From Nodosilinea sp. LEGE 07298 (GTDB lineage: Bacteria > Cyanobacteriota > Cyanobacteriia > Phormidesmidales > Phormidesmidaceae): DNA of 64,000 bases. The notes beneath the pieces were generated by a model. That model saw only the letters and a program-made list of their open reading frames with translations, made no database searches and was not told the origin of the DNA. The translations under genes were made by a program, and so were the position numbers. Positions 17,584-30,975 of the stretch are shown one piece after another. The stretch is taken from positions 1 through 64,000 of the forward strand of contig NZ_JADEXE010000001.1 in the NCBI RefSeq assembly GCF_015207265.1, given 5' to 3'. Within the stretch, counting starts at the first letter, position 1, and each line of letters opens with the position of its first letter.

Positions 17584-18126
17584 ATGCGCTACCGACGTGC
17601 CCAAACCTTAGGGGCAACCTACTTCTTCACCGTCGTTACCTACAATCGGCAACCCCTATTTCATCACGACGAAACCATAGCCCTACTCCGCAAAGCCTTT
17701 CACATCGTCAAAGCAGAGTATCCCTTCACCATTGACGCCATCGTCATCCTGCCCGACCACATCCACAGCATTTGGACTCTGCCTGAGGGTGATGCCGACT
17801 TTTCTTCTCGATGGAAGCGAATCAAAGCCTGGTTTAGCCTGCGGTGCCCTGAAGCCTACAAGCAACAACAATCTATCTCCCGCCTTCGCAAAGGGGAGCA
17901 AGCTATCTGGCAGCGACGGTTTTGGGAACATCAAATTCGTAATGAAGCCGACTTTAGGCAGCATGTGGATTACATTCACTACAATCCGGTAAAACACAAT
18001 CTGGTGAATAGGCCGCTAGATTGGCCCTATTCGAGCTTTCATCGCTATGTTGCAGATAGGGCCTATCCGGCAGATTGGGGCGCGACAAGAGCGGTTGAGT
18101 TTGATGAAAATATTGGTCGTGAGTAA
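17584..18126 (+). mobile_element. RAYT: REP-associated tyrosine transposase
   Basis: A 180-residue HUH-superfamily transposase (TnpA_REP, IS200/IS605-related). The histidine motif DHIHSIWTLP is near residue 58, and the catalytic tyrosine lies in HVDYIHYNPVKH near residue 136. The opening YRRAQTLGATYFFTVVTYNR and the closing DWPYSSFHRYV are standard for RAYTs. The gene appears intact. It is bracketed by one REP on each side in opposite orientation, the arrangement expected if this protein recognises and moves REP sequences. Confidence 0.92.
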
Positions 18127-18183: not shown

Positions 18184-18470
18184 CGGCTACTTGAGTCATT
18201 GATCGGTTTTCGACTGATGATGGCAGGTTTTTGTTGTGCTGAGCGATCGCATTGAATTGGCGTGTTTTGATGCAGAATTCTTTGGGGCGATCGTTCTGAT
18301 CTTGTATCGGTTAGATTAGGCAAGACTTCAAAAGCAACTAGCCTGAAGAAATCCTGCACCTTTCGGGCTCATCAGCAGGTAGAGCATATTATGCGAAAAA
18401 GCGAAGCCGTTCGGGGGAGTTGGAGGGACAAAGCTGTGGTGTGGTCAGACGGAGTGCGGGGGGTGTCTCT

Positions 18471-20870
18471 ATGAGTACCAAGCGGTTTCGCATTGCCTTC
18501 TCCTTTGCGGGAGAGAAAAGAGAGTTTGTCGAAGCGATCGCCACCCTTCTCACCCAGCAATTTGGTCAGGATAAAATTCTCTACGACAAGTATCACGAGG
18601 CCGAGTTTGGTCGCAACGATCTCGGCATCTACCTGCCGAACCTCTATAACCGAGACAGCAACCTCGTCGTTGTCATTGTTTGCCCAAACTACGATGCTAA
18701 AGAATGGACCGGTTTGGAGTGGCTGGCGATCCACAATCTGTTGCAGCAACGTCGTCGTGAAGAAGTTATGCTTTGCCGCTTTGCCCGCGCCCAGGTCGAT
18801 GGACTCTTTGGGGGGGCTGGGTTCGTCGAACTCGATCACAAGTCTCCAGCGCAAGCCGCCACACTCATTCTCGAACGGCTTGCCCTCAATGAAGGCAGGC
18901 CCAAGGACTACTACACCAAGAACTCTGGCGGCGGCGGAGCGCGGTCCAGCGCAAACATCCCCCACAACCTCCCGCGTCTGCAAGCCTTCTTCGGACGCGA
19001 GGCTGAGTTGCAGAAAATCGCCACCGCCCTCGCCCCCGAGGCCCGGGGTTGGGGAGCGCTGATTGATGGCCCCGGCGGTATGGGCAAGACCGCACTCGCC
19101 ATTCGTGCCGCCGAATTAGTCCCTGCCGGGCGCTTCCAACGCATCATCTTTCTCTCGTCGAAGGAGCGCGAACTCACCGCCGATGGGCAGCGATCGCTGG
19201 GATACTTCGTGCTGCCGAGCTATCTAGAAATGCTCAATGCCATTGCCCGTGAGTTGGATCAGCCGGACTTGGCAAAAGCCCCAGAAACCGAACGCTCAGA
19301 CGCAATTCTACGGGCCCTGCGGGAGGCAGAAGTCTTGCTGGTGCTCGACAATCTGGAGACCCTCCCGGAAACCGATCGCGATCGGCTGTTCGCCTTTCTC
19401 GATCGTCTGCCCCGGGGCTGTAGCGCCATTGTCACCAGCCGCCGCCGGGCGGATGCTATGGCCAGCATTCTGCGCCTCGACCGACTCGACTGGCCCGCCG
19501 CCCAGGCCCTCCTCGCCGATCTGGCCCAGACCAATGCCCAGCTGGCCCCTACGACCGAACCAGAACGCCGCGCCCTCTATGAAGAAACCGGCGGCAACCC
19601 GCTGTTGATGCGCTGGGTGGTGGGGCAGCTTGGCCTGGGGCGCTGCCAAACCATCGCCGCCGCCCTCGCCTTTCTGCGCCGTGCGCCAGCCGAGAATAAC
19701 CCGCTGGAGTTTGTCTTTGGCGACCTGCTCGACACCTTCACCGCCAACGAAACCCAGGTTCTCGCTGCGCTCACCCATTTCACCCAGCTGATGCCGGCCA
19801 AGATCATCGTCGAACTCGCCTGCCTGAATGAAGCCGCCGCCCAGGGTGCCCTGAGCGATCTCGCCAACCGGGCCCTGGTGCTGCCAGACTCAGAGGAACG
19901 CCACTTTGCCCTCGTGCCCCTGGTCGCCGACTTTCTGCGCAAGCAAAAGCCCGAGGTGGTGGCAGAGACCGGCAACCGCCTGGAGCAGCGCGCCTATGCC
20001 CTCATCGTCGAGAACAGTTATAAGAAGTATGATCGCTTCCCGGTGTTGGATGCCGCCTGGCCCACCGTGGCCGCCGCGATACCGCTTTTCCTCGCTGGCC
20101 CCAATCCTCGCCTGCAAAAGGTGTGCGCTGCGCTTTTCCAATTCTTCAACTTTACAGGCCGCTATGATGAGTCTCTTTCGCTCAACCAGCAGGCGGAAAC
20201 CAGGGCGATCGCGGCGGACGATCTGTACAATGCGGGCTGGCGAGCCCATCAGGTGGGATGGATTCACCAGCTACGCCAGCAGGCGGACGCGGTGCTGGCC
20301 TGGGCCGACCGGGCGGCGACCCACTGGCAGGCCGCTGGTGCCCGTGAGCGTGCCGTCGCCATCGGCTTGCGCGGCATCGGGCACCAGTTAAAGCAGGATT
20401 ACCCCACCGCGATCAGCGCCTACCGCGAGGCGCTCGACCTGTATCGCAGTTTGTCTGCCGAGAGCGAGGATGTGGCCATCGCCCTGAATAGCCTCGCTGG
20501 GGTCGAGAAGCTCTCCGGCGATTTCGCGGCGGCAGAGCGGGATCTTCGCGAAGCGCTGCGGGTGGCCCGCGCGGTCGATTACGCCGAGGGCGTAGCCAGC
20601 TATACGGGCAATCTGGCTGCGTTGGCCCTAGACCAGAAAGACTGGCCGGGGGCCGAGACCCTGGCCTGCGAGGCGCTGTCCTTGTCGGAAAAGGTGGGTC
20701 GCCAGGAATTGATCGCCGAGGATTGCCGCCGCATTGCCAAAGCCCTGGTGCGCCAGGGCCAAGCCGCCGAGGCTCTGCCCTACGCCCGTCGGGCCGTGGC
20801 CATCTACACCCAACTCGGCTCACCCGACCTGGCCAATGCCCAGGCGATACTGCGGGAGTGCGAGGGCTAA
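18471..20870 (+). CDS. TIR-STAND (NB-ARC)-TPR protein, candidate antiphage sensor
   Basis: A 799-residue NLR-like protein. Residues 5-135 are a TIR-type domain (FRIAFSFAGEKREFVEAIA start; a glutamate near residue 83 in EWTGLEW sits where TIR NADases keep the catalytic Glu). Residues about 170-480 are a STAND NTPase: FGREAELQKIA, Walker A GPGGMGKTALA near 200, Walker B VLLVLDNLE near 289, SAIVTSRR sensor, GGNPLLMRW. Residues about 550-799 are tetratricopeptide repeats, likely the ligand-sensing part. Family knowledge suggests abortive-infection immunity through NAD+ loss; this is inference. The frame is open from 18420, but the ATG at 18471 starts the domain. REP elements lie on both sides. 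Confidence 0.85.
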   Translation: MSTKRFRIAFSFAGEKREFVEAIATLLTQQFGQDKILYDKYHEAEFGRNDLGIYLPNLYNRDSNLVVVIVCPNYDAKEWTGLEWLAIHNLLQQRRREEVMLCRFARAQVDGLFGGAGFVELDHKSPAQAATLILERLALNEGRPKDYYTKNSGGGGARSSANIPHNLPRLQAFFGREAELQKIATALAPEARGWGALIDGPGGMGKTALAIRAAELVPAGRFQRIIFLSSKERELTADGQRSLGYFVLPSYLEMLNAIARELDQPDLAKAPETERSDAILRALREAEVLLVLDNLETLPETDRDRLFAFLDRLPRGCSAIVTSRRRADAMASILRLDRLDWPAAQALLADLAQTNAQLAPTTEPERRALYEETGGNPLLMRWVVGQLGLGRCQTIAAALAFLRRAPAENNPLEFVFGDLLDTFTANETQVLAALTHFTQLMPAKIIVELACLNEAAAQGALSDLANRALVLPDSEERHFALVPLVADFLRKQKPEVVAETGNRLEQRAYALIVENSYKKYDRFPVLDAAWPTVAAAIPLFLAGPNPRLQKVCAALFQFFNFTGRYDESLSLNQQAETRAIAADDLYNAGWRAHQVGWIHQLRQQADAVLAWADRAATHWQAAGARERAVAIGLRGIGHQLKQDYPTAISAYREALDLYRSLSAESEDVAIALNSLAGVEKLSGDFAAAERDLREALRVARAVDYAEGVASYTGNLAALALDQKDWPGAETLACEALSLSEKVGRQELIAEDCRRIAKALVRQGQAAEALPYARRAVAIYTQLGSPDLANAQAILRECEG

Positions 20871-21086: not shown

Positions 21087-21165
21087 GTAGGTTGGGTGAA
21101 ACGCAGTGGAACCCAACGCCAGAGCTAGTTTTGTTGGGTTCTGCTATCGCGCCACCCAACCTACA
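21087..21165. repeat. REPIN: two REPs in inverted orientation
   Basis: GTAGGTTGGGTGAAACGCAG continuing to TGGAACCCAAC (21087-21117) is followed 15 bases later by GTTGGGTTCTGCTATCGCGC continuing to CACCCAACCTACA (21133-21165). The pair can form a long hairpin. The sequence matches the REPs flanking the RAYT. The preceding stretch 20990-21060 holds other GC-rich palindromic debris (GACGCTGGAGCGTC). Confidence 0.85.
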
Positions 21166-21198
21166 GATTCAGGCGTGATAGAGCACTAGTGTGAGTCC

Positions 21199-21514
21199 GC
21201 AACGCTTTAGTGCAACAGCCCAACATTCGATTGTGCGGCCACAATGCTTTAGTGCAGCGGCGCAACATTCGATTGTCAGGCTGCAACTCTTTAATGCGAT
21301 CGCGCAACTTCTCATTGTCGGGCCGCAACATCTTAAGTTGTGGCGCGACAATGCTGCTGCAACAGCGCAACCTTTTAAGTAGTCAATGCACAATGCTTCT
21401 GTCATAGAGCAACTTCGAATAGTCACTCGCTGCACCCTTACCTGCTCAATACACAATGCTTCTGTCATTGCAGCAAATTAATCATTCTCGCGCTGCATCG
21501 CCATTGTTGGGCTA
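21199..21514. repeat. Degenerate tandem array, 21-bp period, 15 units
   Basis: Reading in steps of 21 bases from 21199, nearly every unit begins GCAAC or a close variant: GCAACGCTTTAGTGCAACAG(C), CCAACATTCGATTGTGCGGC(C), ACAATGCTTTAGTGCAGCGG(C), GCAACATTCGATTGTCAGGC(T), and so on to about 21514. One unit has 22 bases. The first six units alternate between a GCTTTAGTGC-like and a TTCGATTGT-like type, giving 42-bp pairs. Both strands have open frames with a seven-residue period, which is expected of any 21-bp repeat, and I see no start signal or known protein. I regard it as non-coding. Confidence 0.75.
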
Positions 21515-21788
21515 AACCTCGCTTCCACCCGCTGCAACTTTTATCCAGGCTTTATCAAAACTGCTAGTGTTTGGTCACAATCTTTCAAATCGAGGCCGCA
21601 ATAGGCTTCCTGCACCGGGCAATCTTGGCAACAGACGAGACAACGCCGCGCCCCAACCGTCGTCTCCGATCGCCTGACCTGAAAGCCTTCGTCGCTGCCC
21701 CAATCATCCGTTATCACTCCTGAAATTTCTTCAGGCAGGCTGGTTCAACCTGTCCGCTATAAACCCATTTACTAAAGGTGTATCCACC

Positions 21789-22148
21789 ATGCCCGTTGTC
21801 AACATCGCCCGTCGCCTGCCCGGTAAAACGATCAGCAACGATATCGACTCCCTCAACGCCCTTGGCACCGTCGAAGGCTATCGCCCCGTTCGCACCGATG
21901 CGTCGCCCGAAGCCCTCAAGACCAATTTCAACAACATGCTGGCCATGCAGCAAAAAGAAACCGAGCTGCAAGCCATGGTCAAAGCCGCTTCCGATGCCGC
22001 CCGGCAGGCCGAATGGGACTTTCACAACTCGATTTTGGGCATGAAAGAAGCCGTGCGGGCTCAGTTTGGCCCCGACAGCAACGCTGCCCAGGCCGTTGGC
22101 TACAAGAAAAAGTCTGAGTACAAGCGCCCCCGCCGCCGCAGCGCCTAG
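21789..22148 (+). CDS. Conserved cyanobacterial hypothetical protein
   Basis: A 119-residue protein belonging to a small cyanobacterial family I recognise only as uncharacterised. Its middle is helical (MLAMQQKETELQAMVKAASD) with a conserved AARQAEWDFHNSILGMKEAV, and the tail is strongly basic (YKKKSEYKRPRRRSA), so nucleic acid or membrane-surface binding is possible but unproven. AAAGGTG lies eight bases before the ATG. A terminator hairpin follows at 22189. Confidence 0.7.
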   Translation: MPVVNIARRLPGKTISNDIDSLNALGTVEGYRPVRTDASPEALKTNFNNMLAMQQKETELQAMVKAASDAARQAEWDFHNSILGMKEAVRAQFGPDSNAAQAVGYKKKSEYKRPRRRSA

Positions 22149-22188: not shown

Positions 22189-22216
22189 AGCCCGCAGGTT
22201 TCTTGTGGGCTTTTTT
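22189..22216 (+). terminator. Rho-independent terminator
   Basis: AGCCCGCA and TGTGGGCT form a stem with one G:U pair and a seven-base loop, followed by TTTTTT. It lies 40 bases after the 119-residue gene. Confidence 0.75.
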
Positions 22217-26999: not shown

Positions 27000-28826
27000 C
27001 TATTGACGCATCCGCATCGCATCCAGCATTTCTGTCTTCGTACCGTCTACGCTGCCGCCCTGAATGCTGACCCGGTAGCGCATGGGCGATAGGTAGCCCT
27101 GAATCTTGAGCTTTTGGCAATCGAGATGGAGCTGGCTGAGGGCGACCTGGCGATCGCCATCAAGCGTATCTAAATAGTCGCTAAACCCTAAAAACGCCAG
27201 TCGGTAGAGCAATTGCTGACTAAACTTGCCTTCAAAGTAGCCACCGTGCACGTCGCGCTTGCCGGTGCCATAGTCGAGGGTGAGCAAAAAATAGTCCAGC
27301 GGATTGAGGGCCGCCTTGCATAGGGCGCGGGTCAAGATACCGACGGGCTGAGCTGAACAAAAATTGTTTTGCAGGTCAAACTTCAGGTCGGTGTAGTCGG
27401 TGCAGTCGAAGTAGGTAAAGAAGTCGGCTACGGTAGCGCGATCGCTGTCTCGTCTGGCCTGCACTTCAAACAGTTTGGCCAGGGTAACCACGCCCCGAGT
27501 CTGAACCCGATCGTAGGTGAGAAACAGATTGTCCATCACGTTCTGTTTCGTCTTGGCAATCGCCTCACCCACCGGCACATCGACCGGAAAATCGCGATCG
27601 AGAGAGTCTAAGTTGACCAGGCCATAGTCGTTAACGCTGCCCGTTTTGTTTTGCAGCGCCACGTTGCCCAATCGATAGCCTCGCGCTTGGGTGCGGCTCG
27701 GAAATGCAATGTAGTTAGCGGCGGTCGAGGCAATGCGCAGGGCAATATCGCCCTCATTGCTGAACAGGTACGACTCTGAGAATCGCCGCAGCGATGAGGC
27801 CAAAAAGTTGGCCCGGCTCGACACAATCGTCAGCACCGGAATGTCGGGTGAGGCGAGAATGAGTCGCTCTAGACGGTACACATCGCCCACATCGCTGGGG
27901 GGTTGTTTGCTGATCGATCGCGAGTCAAACACATCTGACAAAATGCGAATCACATTCGTCACCACAAAGCCGCCCATGCTGTGGCCAATGAAGCTGAGCT
28001 TGACCTTGTTGCGGCTGTTCTTTGCCCAGTACTCGCGAGCTTTGAGGACCGCCTGCTGCTGCTCATGCTCGGTGACCGCTAGCGGAAACTGGCTGTTGGC
28101 AGTGCGCTGCACAACGGCCTGGTCAATTTGGCGCAGCAGCTCGACGAGGTCTAGCACACCAAAATTATCGGCTCGGTAGCTATCGCGAAAATAGACAATT
28201 AATCGCAGCACCACCAGCGCCGCCATCAGCAACCCCAGCACCAAAAATAGCGCCAGCACCAGGCTGAGAAAAAAACCGGCGACCGACATTTTGAATAGGA
28301 AAAGAAGCTCAAAAACAAGCAATGCCAAAGCGCATACGGCCCCAGTCAGCAGCAAATCGCGGGGCAGGGGCGGCAGCGCACCCAGGGCTTCTATGACTTT
28401 TTTAGGCTTGGTGAGGGCGACATTTTCAGAAGGCCAGCGGTAGCCGACAAAAACTCGGCTGGGGCTACTGCTAATGGCCGGGTCGTGGCGATTGACATAC
28501 TTGAAAATATTTTTGTACCAGGCCTGCACCCCGTCCAGGCTGGTGTTGTAGCCGTGCACCGAAATTACCAGTTCAGCACAGCGATCGGGGGCGTCGGTCA
28601 TCATGTGGCACAGGTGGTCGGCGATGTCGTTAATGCCCTGAATGGCCTGCTGCTGATGGCGATCGCTAGATTCTTCGGCATCTTCAATGTTGGGCGGGGC
28701 GCTACTCATGACAAAGTAGCCAGGCACCTTGCCCTCAGCACCGCTGAAGTTGTCTAGGTCGACAATTTGAGCCAGGCTCTCGTCGGCAAAGACAAATTTC
28801 TGGATGATAAACGGAAGCTGTTTCAT
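27000..28826 (-). CDS. Membrane-associated alpha/beta hydrolase-like protein
   Basis: A 608-residue protein. The hydrolase elements are VISVHGYNTSLDGVQAWY near residue 87 (oxyanion side), VFVGYRWPSE near 125 and the nucleophile elbow SFIGHSMGGFVVTNV near 282, a DUF900-like arrangement. Between them, residues about 155-215 form two hydrophobic membrane segments (ALALLVFELLFLF, LALFLVLGLLMAALVVL). The C-terminal 250 residues have no motif I know. The substrate is unknown. A 21-bp-period repeat array lies in its upstream region at 28968-29198. Confidence 0.75.
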   Translation of the reverse strand: MKQLPFIIQKFVFADESLAQIVDLDNFSGAEGKVPGYFVMSSAPPNIEDAEESSDRHQQQAIQGINDIADHLCHMMTDAPDRCAELVISVHGYNTSLDGVQAWYKNIFKYVNRHDPAISSSPSRVFVGYRWPSENVALTKPKKVIEALGALPPLPRDLLLTGAVCALALLVFELLFLFKMSVAGFFLSLVLALFLVLGLLMAALVVLRLIVYFRDSYRADNFGVLDLVELLRQIDQAVVQRTANSQFPLAVTEHEQQQAVLKAREYWAKNSRNKVKLSFIGHSMGGFVVTNVIRILSDVFDSRSISKQPPSDVGDVYRLERLILASPDIPVLTIVSSRANFLASSLRRFSESYLFSNEGDIALRIASTAANYIAFPSRTQARGYRLGNVALQNKTGSVNDYGLVNLDSLDRDFPVDVPVGEAIAKTKQNVMDNLFLTYDRVQTRGVVTLAKLFEVQARRDSDRATVADFFTYFDCTDYTDLKFDLQNNFCSAQPVGILTRALCKAALNPLDYFLLTLDYGTGKRDVHGGYFEGKFSQQLLYRLAFLGFSDYLDTLDGDRQVALSQLHLDCQKLKIQGYLSPMRYRVSIQGGSVDGTKTEMLDAMRMRQ

Positions 28827-28967: not shown

Positions 28968-29198
28968 CAGGCGATCGCCCGCGCATACGATGACATCGCT
29001 CTGCAATGATATGCGATCGCCCGCGTATGCCGTGACACCGCTCTGCAATGGCATATCACTGGCTGGACACGGCATAACACCCGTCTGCAATGGCATATCA
29101 CTGGCTGGACATGGCATAACATCCGTCTGCAATGGCATATCACTGGCTGGATATAGCAGATCACGGTGCGGCAATACGATTGCGCAGGAGTGATATAG
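28968..29198. repeat. Tandem array, 21-bp period, 11 units in A/B alternation
   Basis: In 21-base steps the units alternate. A type: CATATCACTGGCTGGACACG(G) and CATATCACTGGCTGGACATG(G). B type: CATAACACCCGTCTGCAATG(G) and CATAACATCCGTCTGCAATG(G). Earlier units are diverged but keep register (GATGACATCGCTCTGCAATG(A), TATGCGATCGCCCGCGTATG(C)). The 42-bp A+B pair is almost exact from 29052 to 29156. It sits between the hydrolase promoter side and the end of the ABC ATPase gene. The opposite strand has an open frame with a seven-residue period, but no recognisable protein. Confidence 0.85.
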
Positions 29199-29245: not shown

Positions 29246-30874
29246 TCAAGCGCCCTTGGTCAGCACCGGCACCGATCGCAGCAGGGCTTGGGTATAGGGG
29301 TGCTGGGGTGACTCAAACAGGGTTTTGGTCGGGGCGAGTTCAACAATTTTGCCCTGCTGCATGACGGCAATGCGATCGCACATAAACCGCGCCACCCACA
29401 GGTCGTGGGTAATAAACAGGTAGGTGAGGTCGAACTCCTGCTTGAGGGCAATCATCAGCTCTAGCACCTGGGTTTGCACGGTGGCGTCGAGCATGCTGAC
29501 GGGTTCGTCGCAGATCACTAGCTTGGGCTTGGTAATCAGGGCGCGGGCGATCGCCACCCGCTGCTGCTGCCCCCCCGACAGATCGCCAGGAAAGCGATTG
29601 AAATAGTCGGCGGTGGGGTTGAGGCTGACGCGGGCGAGCATGTCGTGGGCCTGTTTTTCGGCCTCCGCGACGGTGGCGAGGCTGTGAATCAGCAGCGGGT
29701 CGGCAATGCTTTTGCCCACGCTCATCATTGGGTTGAGGCAGGCGTGGGGGTCTTGAAATACCATTTGCAGCTGTCGCCGCTGCTGCCGCATGGCCTCTCG
29801 CGACAGGGTCGTAAGCTCGGTGCCGTCAAAGACTACCTGCCCGGCGGTAGGTTTTACCAGTTGCAGAATGGTGCGCGACAGGGTGCTCTTGCCGCAGCCC
29901 GACTCGCCCACCAGCCCCACCACCTCGCCGGGGTAAATCTCTAGCGTTACCCCGTCTACGGCCCTAATCACCTTCGATTGCTGGTTGCCCAACAGGCGGG
30001 CGAACGGGTTGGCCTCCAAAACGTAGTGCTGTTTGACATCCGTCAGGCGCAGAATGGGTTCGGCGGCGGTGGCCCTGTAGACCAACCCTTCCGCCTGCTG
30101 CATTTGCAGGGCCGACTCGACCAGCGATCGCGTGTAGTCGTCCTGCGGGTCTTGAAATACCGTGGCGGCGGTACCCTCTTCGACCACCCGACCCTGGTAC
30201 ATAACGGCAACGCGATCGCAGTACTCCGCCACCAGCGACAGATCGTGGGAAATCAGCACTAGCGCGGTACCCAGCTCGTCGCACAGCCGGGTCAGCTCGT
30301 CAAGAATCTGGGCCGACACCGTCACATCCAGACTGGTGGTGGGCTCGTCGGCCACAATCAGCTGCGGCTCTAGAATCATCGCCAGGGCGATCGCCACCCG
30401 CTGGCGCATGCCGCCGCTAAACTCGTGGGGGTACTGACCAAATCGACTGGCGGGAATGTTGACTTTTTCGAGCACCGCGATCGCCCGCGCCTTCGCCTCC
30501 GCCTGCGAAACCTCTGCCCGATGCGCCCGCAGCGTCTCAACACAGTGGTCGCCAATGGTCATCAGCGGGTTGAGCCGCGTCATCGGGTCTTGAAACACTA
30601 GGGCGATCGCCTCGCCTCGAAACCGCCGCAGCCGCTGGGCGGTGAAATCTAGCACCGACTCGTTGTTAAACCACACCCGGCCCTGCAAATCGGTCGCTTT
30701 GGGCAACAGCCGCAGCGCCGCCCGCCCCAGAGTGCTCTTACCGCAGCCCGACTCGCCCACCAGGCCCAGCTTTTCCCCCGGCGATAGGGTCAGCGAAACG
30801 CGATCGACCGCGCGATCGTCCTGGCCAGGATACGTGACGGAGAACGATTCGAGGGAGAGGAGAGCGTCAGGCAT
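29246..30874 (-). CDS. Oligopeptide-type ABC transporter, two fused ATPase domains
   Basis: A 542-residue protein with two complete ABC ATPases in one chain, as in DppD-DppF fusions. First module: GESGCGKSTLGRAALRLLPK, signature SGGMRQRVAIALAM and Walker B LIVADEPTTSLD. Second module: GESGCGKSTLSRTILQLVKP, signature SGGQQQRVAIARAL and Walker B LVICDEPVSMLD. Each is followed by the oligopeptide-transporter C-terminal extension (PYTQALLRSVP). No permease or binding protein is nearby, so it must work with subunits encoded elsewhere. The frame extends to 30955, but the extra residues are translated repeat sequence, so the ATG at 30874 is chosen. Confidence 0.92.
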   Translation of the reverse strand: MPDALLSLESFSVTYPGQDDRAVDRVSLTLSPGEKLGLVGESGCGKSTLGRAALRLLPKATDLQGRVWFNNESVLDFTAQRLRRFRGEAIALVFQDPMTRLNPLMTIGDHCVETLRAHRAEVSQAEAKARAIAVLEKVNIPASRFGQYPHEFSGGMRQRVAIALAMILEPQLIVADEPTTSLDVTVSAQILDELTRLCDELGTALVLISHDLSLVAEYCDRVAVMYQGRVVEEGTAATVFQDPQDDYTRSLVESALQMQQAEGLVYRATAAEPILRLTDVKQHYVLEANPFARLLGNQQSKVIRAVDGVTLEIYPGEVVGLVGESGCGKSTLSRTILQLVKPTAGQVVFDGTELTTLSREAMRQQRRQLQMVFQDPHACLNPMMSVGKSIADPLLIHSLATVAEAEKQAHDMLARVSLNPTADYFNRFPGDLSGGQQQRVAIARALITKPKLVICDEPVSMLDATVQTQVLELMIALKQEFDLTYLFITHDLWVARFMCDRIAVMQQGKIVELAPTKTLFESPQHPYTQALLRSVPVLTKGA

Positions 30875-30975
30875 TCGGGTAGGGGGTGGATGGGTAGGGG
30901 GTGCGACAGTAGAGGATTGGAGGAGTGCGAAAAATGCGAACCGGACAGAGAACAAATGCTTGTGTCAGTGATCTA

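Follow-up and report, generated by a model that had tools for sequence, protein, structure and literature searches.

A degenerate array of 21-bp units in Nodosilinea sp. LEGE 07298 was found to lie 5′ of an unannotated gene for a small basic helical protein of 119 amino acids, and the same arrangement recurs at relatives of this gene in other cyanobacteria. From the sequence comparisons, our best explanation, to which we give an even chance of being right, is that the array would be the cis partner in a two-part system of cyanobacteria, made up of the protein gene and an operator-like array to which the product would bind as phased homodimers. The window, i.e., the whole stretch of DNA that was analysed, comprises 64,000 nucleotides, and the features discussed below are located in it as follows.

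17584-18126: IS200-like Y1 transposase gene of the RAYT type
18420-20870: TIR-NACHT/NB-ARC-TPR gene, STAND-type and defence-like, upstream of the array
21190-21540, no strand assigned: degenerate 21-bp-period array whose first six units alternate between A and B; it precedes the 119-aa gene
21541-21788, plus strand: spacer from array to gene, conserved between Nodosilinea-type orthologues in pairwise alignments
21789-22148, plus strand: unannotated 119-aa gene for a small basic helical protein, 275 bp past the array end at 21514
22189-22211, plus strand: terminator-like hairpin followed by a T run, 3′ of the 119-aa gene (pattern scan)
27000-28826, minus strand: alpha/beta-hydrolase-like gene, neighbour of the second array
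28971-29180, no strand assigned: second 21/42-bp array with an unrelated unit, intergenic (TRF and autocorrelation)
29246-30955, minus strand: ABC transporter gene, neighbour of the second array

The original prediction had described a 21-bp register in this array, with A/B alternation, a 42-bp higher-order unit in the first six units and identity that decays along the array, and the autocorrelation that it had proposed as a check was run. Self-identity of 21190-21520 was raised at lags of 21 (z=4.2), 42 (z=9.7), 63 (z=7.2) and 105 bp (z=7.0), and none of 500 dinucleotide-preserving shuffles equalled the array at these lags. Lags of 20, 40, 41, 43, 62 and 64 bp were at background level, while there was a weak rise at lags of 22-23 bp (z about 2) and a further one at lag 19 (z=3.6). 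The alternation was borne out by TRF, which reported a 42-bp period, and by the first part of the array (21190-21340), where identity was 72% at lag 42 versus 47% at lag 21. The decay was also seen, in that the second half kept significance at lags 42, 63 and 105 only, with the 21-bp register retained. In a Bayesian column fit, the clean part of the array (11 units) gave an lnBF of 52 at period 21, while all other periods from 15 to 30 scored below 1. GCAAC, which had been named as the most constant part, was the most frequent unit start. RCA and TGY triplets each gather at a phase of their own within the 21-bp period, and RCA-N9-TGY occurs 7 times against 0.3 expected. The constant bases recur every two helical turns, as had been pointed out.

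The array was correctly predicted not to be a CRISPR, in which repeats are separated by unique spacers, whereas the 21-bp units here are directly adjacent with no unique spacers between them. The prediction that it is not a translated conserved protein held as well. Substitutions in the array fall on the three codon positions without phase bias (158/184/152), whereas those in orthologues of the 119-aa gene show a third-position excess (76/54/189), and because they fall mostly at third codon positions, the 119-aa ORF is a genuine protein gene. There are open frames on both strands of the array, and the one on the minus strand looks coiled-coil-like, with a sub-threshold Pfam match. DNA with a 21-bp period easily yields such frames. 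Coding heptad repeats were rejected from the lack of codon-phase bias and from the encoded peptides, which differ from locus to locus.

The original prediction had overlooked the association with the 119-aa gene. In related genomes, where it had suggested a search for phased arrays, such arrays were found upstream of this gene and also dispersed. The assembly of the window genome (7.25 Mb in 617 contigs) holds eight copies of the gene with 44-100% identity, and all eight have a 21-bp array upstream. The gene was present in 24 of 386 sampled cyanobacterial genomes, and a profile search retained 80 loci in Nodosilinea, Leptolyngbya-like and Nostocales genomes. Using lnBF >10 as the threshold, an array with a period of exactly 21 bp was detected upstream of the gene at 71 of the 85 loci with some upstream sequence, versus 0 of 81 downstream controls, and a few further loci had 41-bp (20+21) periods instead. 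In a second set of 52 partly overlapping loci, a 21-bp array was located upstream in 38 and downstream in 3. As a background, 400 kb of one Nostocaceae genome contained four period-21 arrays (about 1 per 100 kb), including one at the 119-aa gene, and samples of the window genome contained one weak array in 252 kb and one ORF-internal region in 271 kb. A clear array was lacking at loci L108-L113 (genera g12, g16 and g28), and in three of these genomes (G030, G087 and G444) dispersed arrays were also missing in the family survey. Among the short tandem arrays in 400 kb of G338 (L143-L162), those of period 14, probably heptanucleotide, were the commonest, at 19 versus 4 of period 21.

No neighbour gene, operon or defence island was conserved beside the gene-array pair over the 85 loci, and in other genomes the array does not have the TIR-NACHT-TPR gene as a conserved neighbour. 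Since no gene is kept next to the pair, the defence gene at the window locus is incidental. The specific tie between array and defence gene proposed in the original prediction was thus not upheld, and a conserved operon or defence island was rejected as a reading of the locus. A palindromic sequence, GTTGGGTT/AACCCAAC, lies near 21090-21180 between the Y1 transposase gene and the array region, and seems to reappear beside the IS200-like Y1 transposase gene.

The consensus of the unit varies among lineages and even among paralogues of the window genome, while the period of 21 is constant. In 31 of 33 pairs of Nodosilinea-type orthologues, the net offset of the array was a multiple of 21 (0 to 126). 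On the other hand, the offset over the spacer of about 300 bp was never a multiple of 21 in those pairs, and small indels in the alignments of the 21541-21788 spacer were not in steps of 21. These alignments showed a constraint on the period while the unit sequence turns over, and, together with the survey of loci, they showed at the level of sequence the linkage of gene and array, the conservation of the period and the length steps of whole 21 bp. Some arrays contain near-identical units, which indicates recent tandem duplication. This, and the change of array length by whole units, would be expected of neutral slippage minisatellites, in which 21-bp changes are tolerated because they keep the helical phase in promoter regions. 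We regard this explanation as very improbable: the period is held in degenerate arrays and over unrelated unit sequences, the arrays are linked to one gene family and co-occur with it, and promoter phase is irrelevant to arrays in convergent gaps, described below, which counts against it. The original prediction had likewise considered plain slippage insufficient to explain the array, and we agree.

Besides the arrays at the 119-aa gene, others of the same unit family lie elsewhere in the genomes; that the window array has such relatives in its own genome had been overlooked, too. Ten Nostocales genomes were searched with one unit type, and eight of them had 6-32 matches each. When 45 array positions, which include a few of the gene's own arrays, were read, 43 were intergenic; the gaps were tandem in 26 cases, convergent in 10 and divergent in 7, with intergenic base shares of 0.53, 0.26 and 0.21, respectively. 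The dispersed arrays also had no orientation bias. An upstream-only regulon was rejected, as the gap-type shares are close to the intergenic base; the dispersed arrays are not specifically promoter elements, and the evidence does not support regulation of their neighbours. In the window genome, too, arrays of the window type and the C348 type were found at places that lack a copy of the 119-aa gene (C293 and C201).

The distribution of array matches, which are caught by DNA queries for related units only and may be fragments of a single array, was compared with that of the gene. Among 99 Nostocaceae genomes, which are not independent of each other, matches were found in 28 of 34 with the gene versus 5 of 65 without it (Fisher p=6e-14), and with at least four matches per genome, a cut-off meant to discount the array adjoining the gene, the numbers were 23 versus 1 (p=3e-13). 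The gene-less genome was the poorer in matches in 7 of 7 genera holding both states. In the window's own family, array matches were present in 14 of 26 genomes with the gene and 0 of 33 without (p=7e-7), and in its genus in 13 of 17 and 0 of 5 (p=0.005). The co-occurrence of gene and arrays was shown at the level of sequence, as was the dispersal of arrays in intergenic DNA, though common descent of the genomes and, to some extent, the array adjoining the gene inflate the association. The arrays that remain in a few gene-less genomes have no visible decay. This observation, and the absence of a recognised DNA-binding domain in the 119-aa protein, would fit a different explanation, in which some other DNA-binding protein, of wider distribution, would use the arrays as its sites and the 119-aa gene would be just one conserved target. 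We consider it improbable, given that no arrays of these unit types were detected in 60 of the 65 gene-less Nostocaceae genomes and that the dispersed arrays have no preference for promoters.

The main rival to the two-part system is a selfish one similar to REP/RAYT, in which the arrays would be small intergenic repeats that are mobile or self-expanding, the gene the master of their spread or tandem expansion and the linked array its own copy. The dispersed, intergenic and unbiased placement of the arrays is in its favour, and so is the variable copy number of the gene, with up to 10 matches per genome in the window's genus and truncated or stop-containing copies beside intact ones (G482, G488, G501, G474, G497 and G511). 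Moreover, in one Nostocaceae genus (G125, G167 and G068), about eight arrays appear by eye to be carried by a MITE-like element with inverted ends, ACTTAGTACAGC... and ...TTTACTAAGT (L281, L291, L294, L279, L339, L341, L343 and L354). At one orthologous site of this genus, an array was present in G125 and G167, and none was detected in G068. Inverted or common ends were not seen around arrays at most loci beyond this genus, however, and family searches detected no nuclease or transposase signature in the 119-aa protein. In addition, the linked array is always 5′ of the gene and not on both sides, and the 21-bp register survives even in degenerate sequence. We hold the selfish reading to be rather unlikely. 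A viral or plasmid origin was rejected: no viral or phage relative was found, one match is on a very large Nostoc replicon, and the contexts are chromosomal.

Returning to the two-part system, the anatomy of the units was analysed in 103 arrays, mostly of Nostocaceae. Their consensus is CTTRCAWTGNNAWTGYATCGR, in which RCAWT-N3-AWTGY forms the core of a dyad. Symmetric positions of the dyad covary, being complementary in a fraction of 0.68 versus 0.50 expected at one position and 0.78 versus 0.63 at another. Among the Nostocaceae arrays, 44 of 58 had a majority unit with a perfect core (about 0.1 expected), as did 8 of 51 other arrays (0.0 expected). From one core to the next, the distance was 21 bp in 514 of 562 cases; in 41 it was 42 bp. 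Dyads with covarying halves, as read from sequence, were thus shown in Nostocaceae; they are looser in the window array, and some arrays, e.g., C279 and C348, have none. Two roles had been suggested for the array. That of a scaffold on which a DNA-binding protein is phased is strengthened by this candidate operator motif and is the best reading. Intrinsic curvature found no support as far as A-tracts go, the window array having one T4 run in 316 bp and no phased A-tracts.

Units that closely resemble one another are found in both directions with respect to the 119-aa gene, which is what sites in double-stranded DNA would show, and A-A and T-T mismatches are common at one symmetric position of the dyad. 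Both observations favour half-sites in double-stranded DNA over an RNA stem. Tandem hairpins in a leader or small RNA would agree with the position of the array 5′ of the gene and with its moderate folding z-scores (-2.2 and -2.7 on the two strands), and yet the flipped units, mismatches unsuited to a stem, and an Rfam search of the window that matched no RNA family leave an RNA role with hardly any probability.

The 119-aa protein has a pI of 9.8. AlphaFold2 on 61 relatives (mean pLDDT 88.6) predicted helices at 12-27, 40-93 and 98-102, followed by a basic tail rich in Lys/Arg. The family had no convincing match in Pfam, NCBIfam, PHROGs or PADLOC and no match to a replication initiator, and its predicted fold had neither a PDB or viral fold match, nor structural homologues, nor a helix-turn-helix or known DNA-binding fold. 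The hairpin at 22189-22211 suggests that the gene is a single-gene transcription unit, weakly so because terminator-like patterns are about equally frequent in shuffled sequence.

We infer that the 119-aa protein may be the binder of the arrays, that it may dimerise and regulate its own gene, and that it could have an architectural role at the dispersed sites. Each gene for the small basic helical protein would be preceded by tandem operator-like sites two helical turns apart, and the same unit family would be scattered through the intergenic DNA of genomes holding the gene. The product, as a homodimer or oligomer, would bind one dyad per 21 bp, and successive dimers would lie side by side on one helix face, leading to cooperative binding. 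At its own array this would result in autoregulation, and at the dispersed arrays the protein would cluster or bridge DNA. The high pI and the Lys/Arg-rich tail of the protein are in favour of this explanation. The lack of a known DNA-binding fold, the gene copies without arrays, the undecayed arrays in genomes without the gene, the missing promoter bias of the dispersed arrays, the dyads that are loose in the window and absent elsewhere, the inflated co-occurrence, and the downstream arrays at 3 of 52 loci count against it.

The proposed pair resembles several known systems in part. In ParR/parC, TubR/tubC and the StbA repeats, a small protein gene has phased direct repeats upstream, to which its product binds cooperatively with autoregulation. 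The upstream phased array at a small protein gene is shared, whereas the 119-aa pair is chromosomal and multicopy, has dispersed arrays as well, and lacks a conserved motor or cytoskeletal partner and a recognised DNA-binding fold. MatP/matS and ParB/parS use single palindromic sites dispersed on the chromosome, bound by proteins with known domains; dispersed palindromic sites, there dependent on a trans-acting protein, are common to both, while here the sites form phased arrays, one always by the 119-aa gene. Plasmid iterons are, like the units here, helically phased direct repeats of about 20-22 bp; the 119-aa pair, in contrast, has no replication initiator and is chromosomal, with phages giving no match and the very large Nostoc replicon one. 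Autoregulatory operator arrays have upstream dyad sites, one per repeat, and this likeness is clear in Nostocaceae and loose in the window. RAYTs are REP-associated tyrosine transposases, whose genes are flanked by REPs. In REP/BIME and RAYT (PMC3116915, PMC3733652), a gene family is tied to short palindromic repeats that are also scattered between the genes of the same genome. Genomes with the 119-aa gene likewise hold scattered palindromic repeats in their intergenic DNA; the 119-aa family, however, is not a Y1 (HUH) transposase, judging from the four family databases, and its arrays are long and 21-bp-phased, always 5′ of the gene, fixed in spacing and variable in unit sequence. For Nostocales, Ionescu et al. 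2010, as cited in PMC3610870, reported a tandem array in front of hetF, NsiR1, which is described as the source of an sRNA. Both are tandem repeats 5′ of a cyanobacterial gene, but NsiR1 is at another gene (hetF) and at one locus and is an sRNA source, whereas the window array has no Rfam match.

A keyword search of the literature, with most subscription papers outside its scope, found no description of the gene-array pairing. What would be new is the combination and the unmatched protein family, as protein binding to phased site arrays is already known. It is conceivable, with somewhat less than an even chance, that the pair represents an undescribed DNA-organising (or selfish) system of cyanobacteria, in which a new family of small basic helical proteins has cognate 21-bp-phased arrays, one beside the gene itself and up to tens of others over the genome, helical phase is kept while the recognised sequence is free, and protein and arrays diversify as paralogous pairs inside a single genome. 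If this is right, an unrecognised pairing of a protein family with a repeat family would extend across Nostocales and Leptolyngbya-like cyanobacteria and would account for many intergenic 21-bp tandem arrays of cyanobacteria. It would also amount to a natural experiment on binding sites whose spacing is constrained more strongly than their sequence, and would offer a candidate that can be tested for a role in organising the chromosome or as a selfish repeat of a new kind.

A second array in the window (28971-29180) had also been overlooked. It has no copy of the 119-aa gene beside it, and its unit could not be assigned to the array type of any paralogue. It lies 145 bp from the start of the alpha/beta-hydrolase-like gene. 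Relatives of this array at C291 and C264 immediately precede an ATPase gene and a NACHT-HEAT-like gene, the gene names here and at the second array being given from reading of the ORFs. Lastly, at two paralogues in the window genome a 24-bp tandem array, GTCGAGCGGAGTCGAGACGG-like, closely precedes the 21-bp array, L138 (1887-1982) and L139 (9117-9236).
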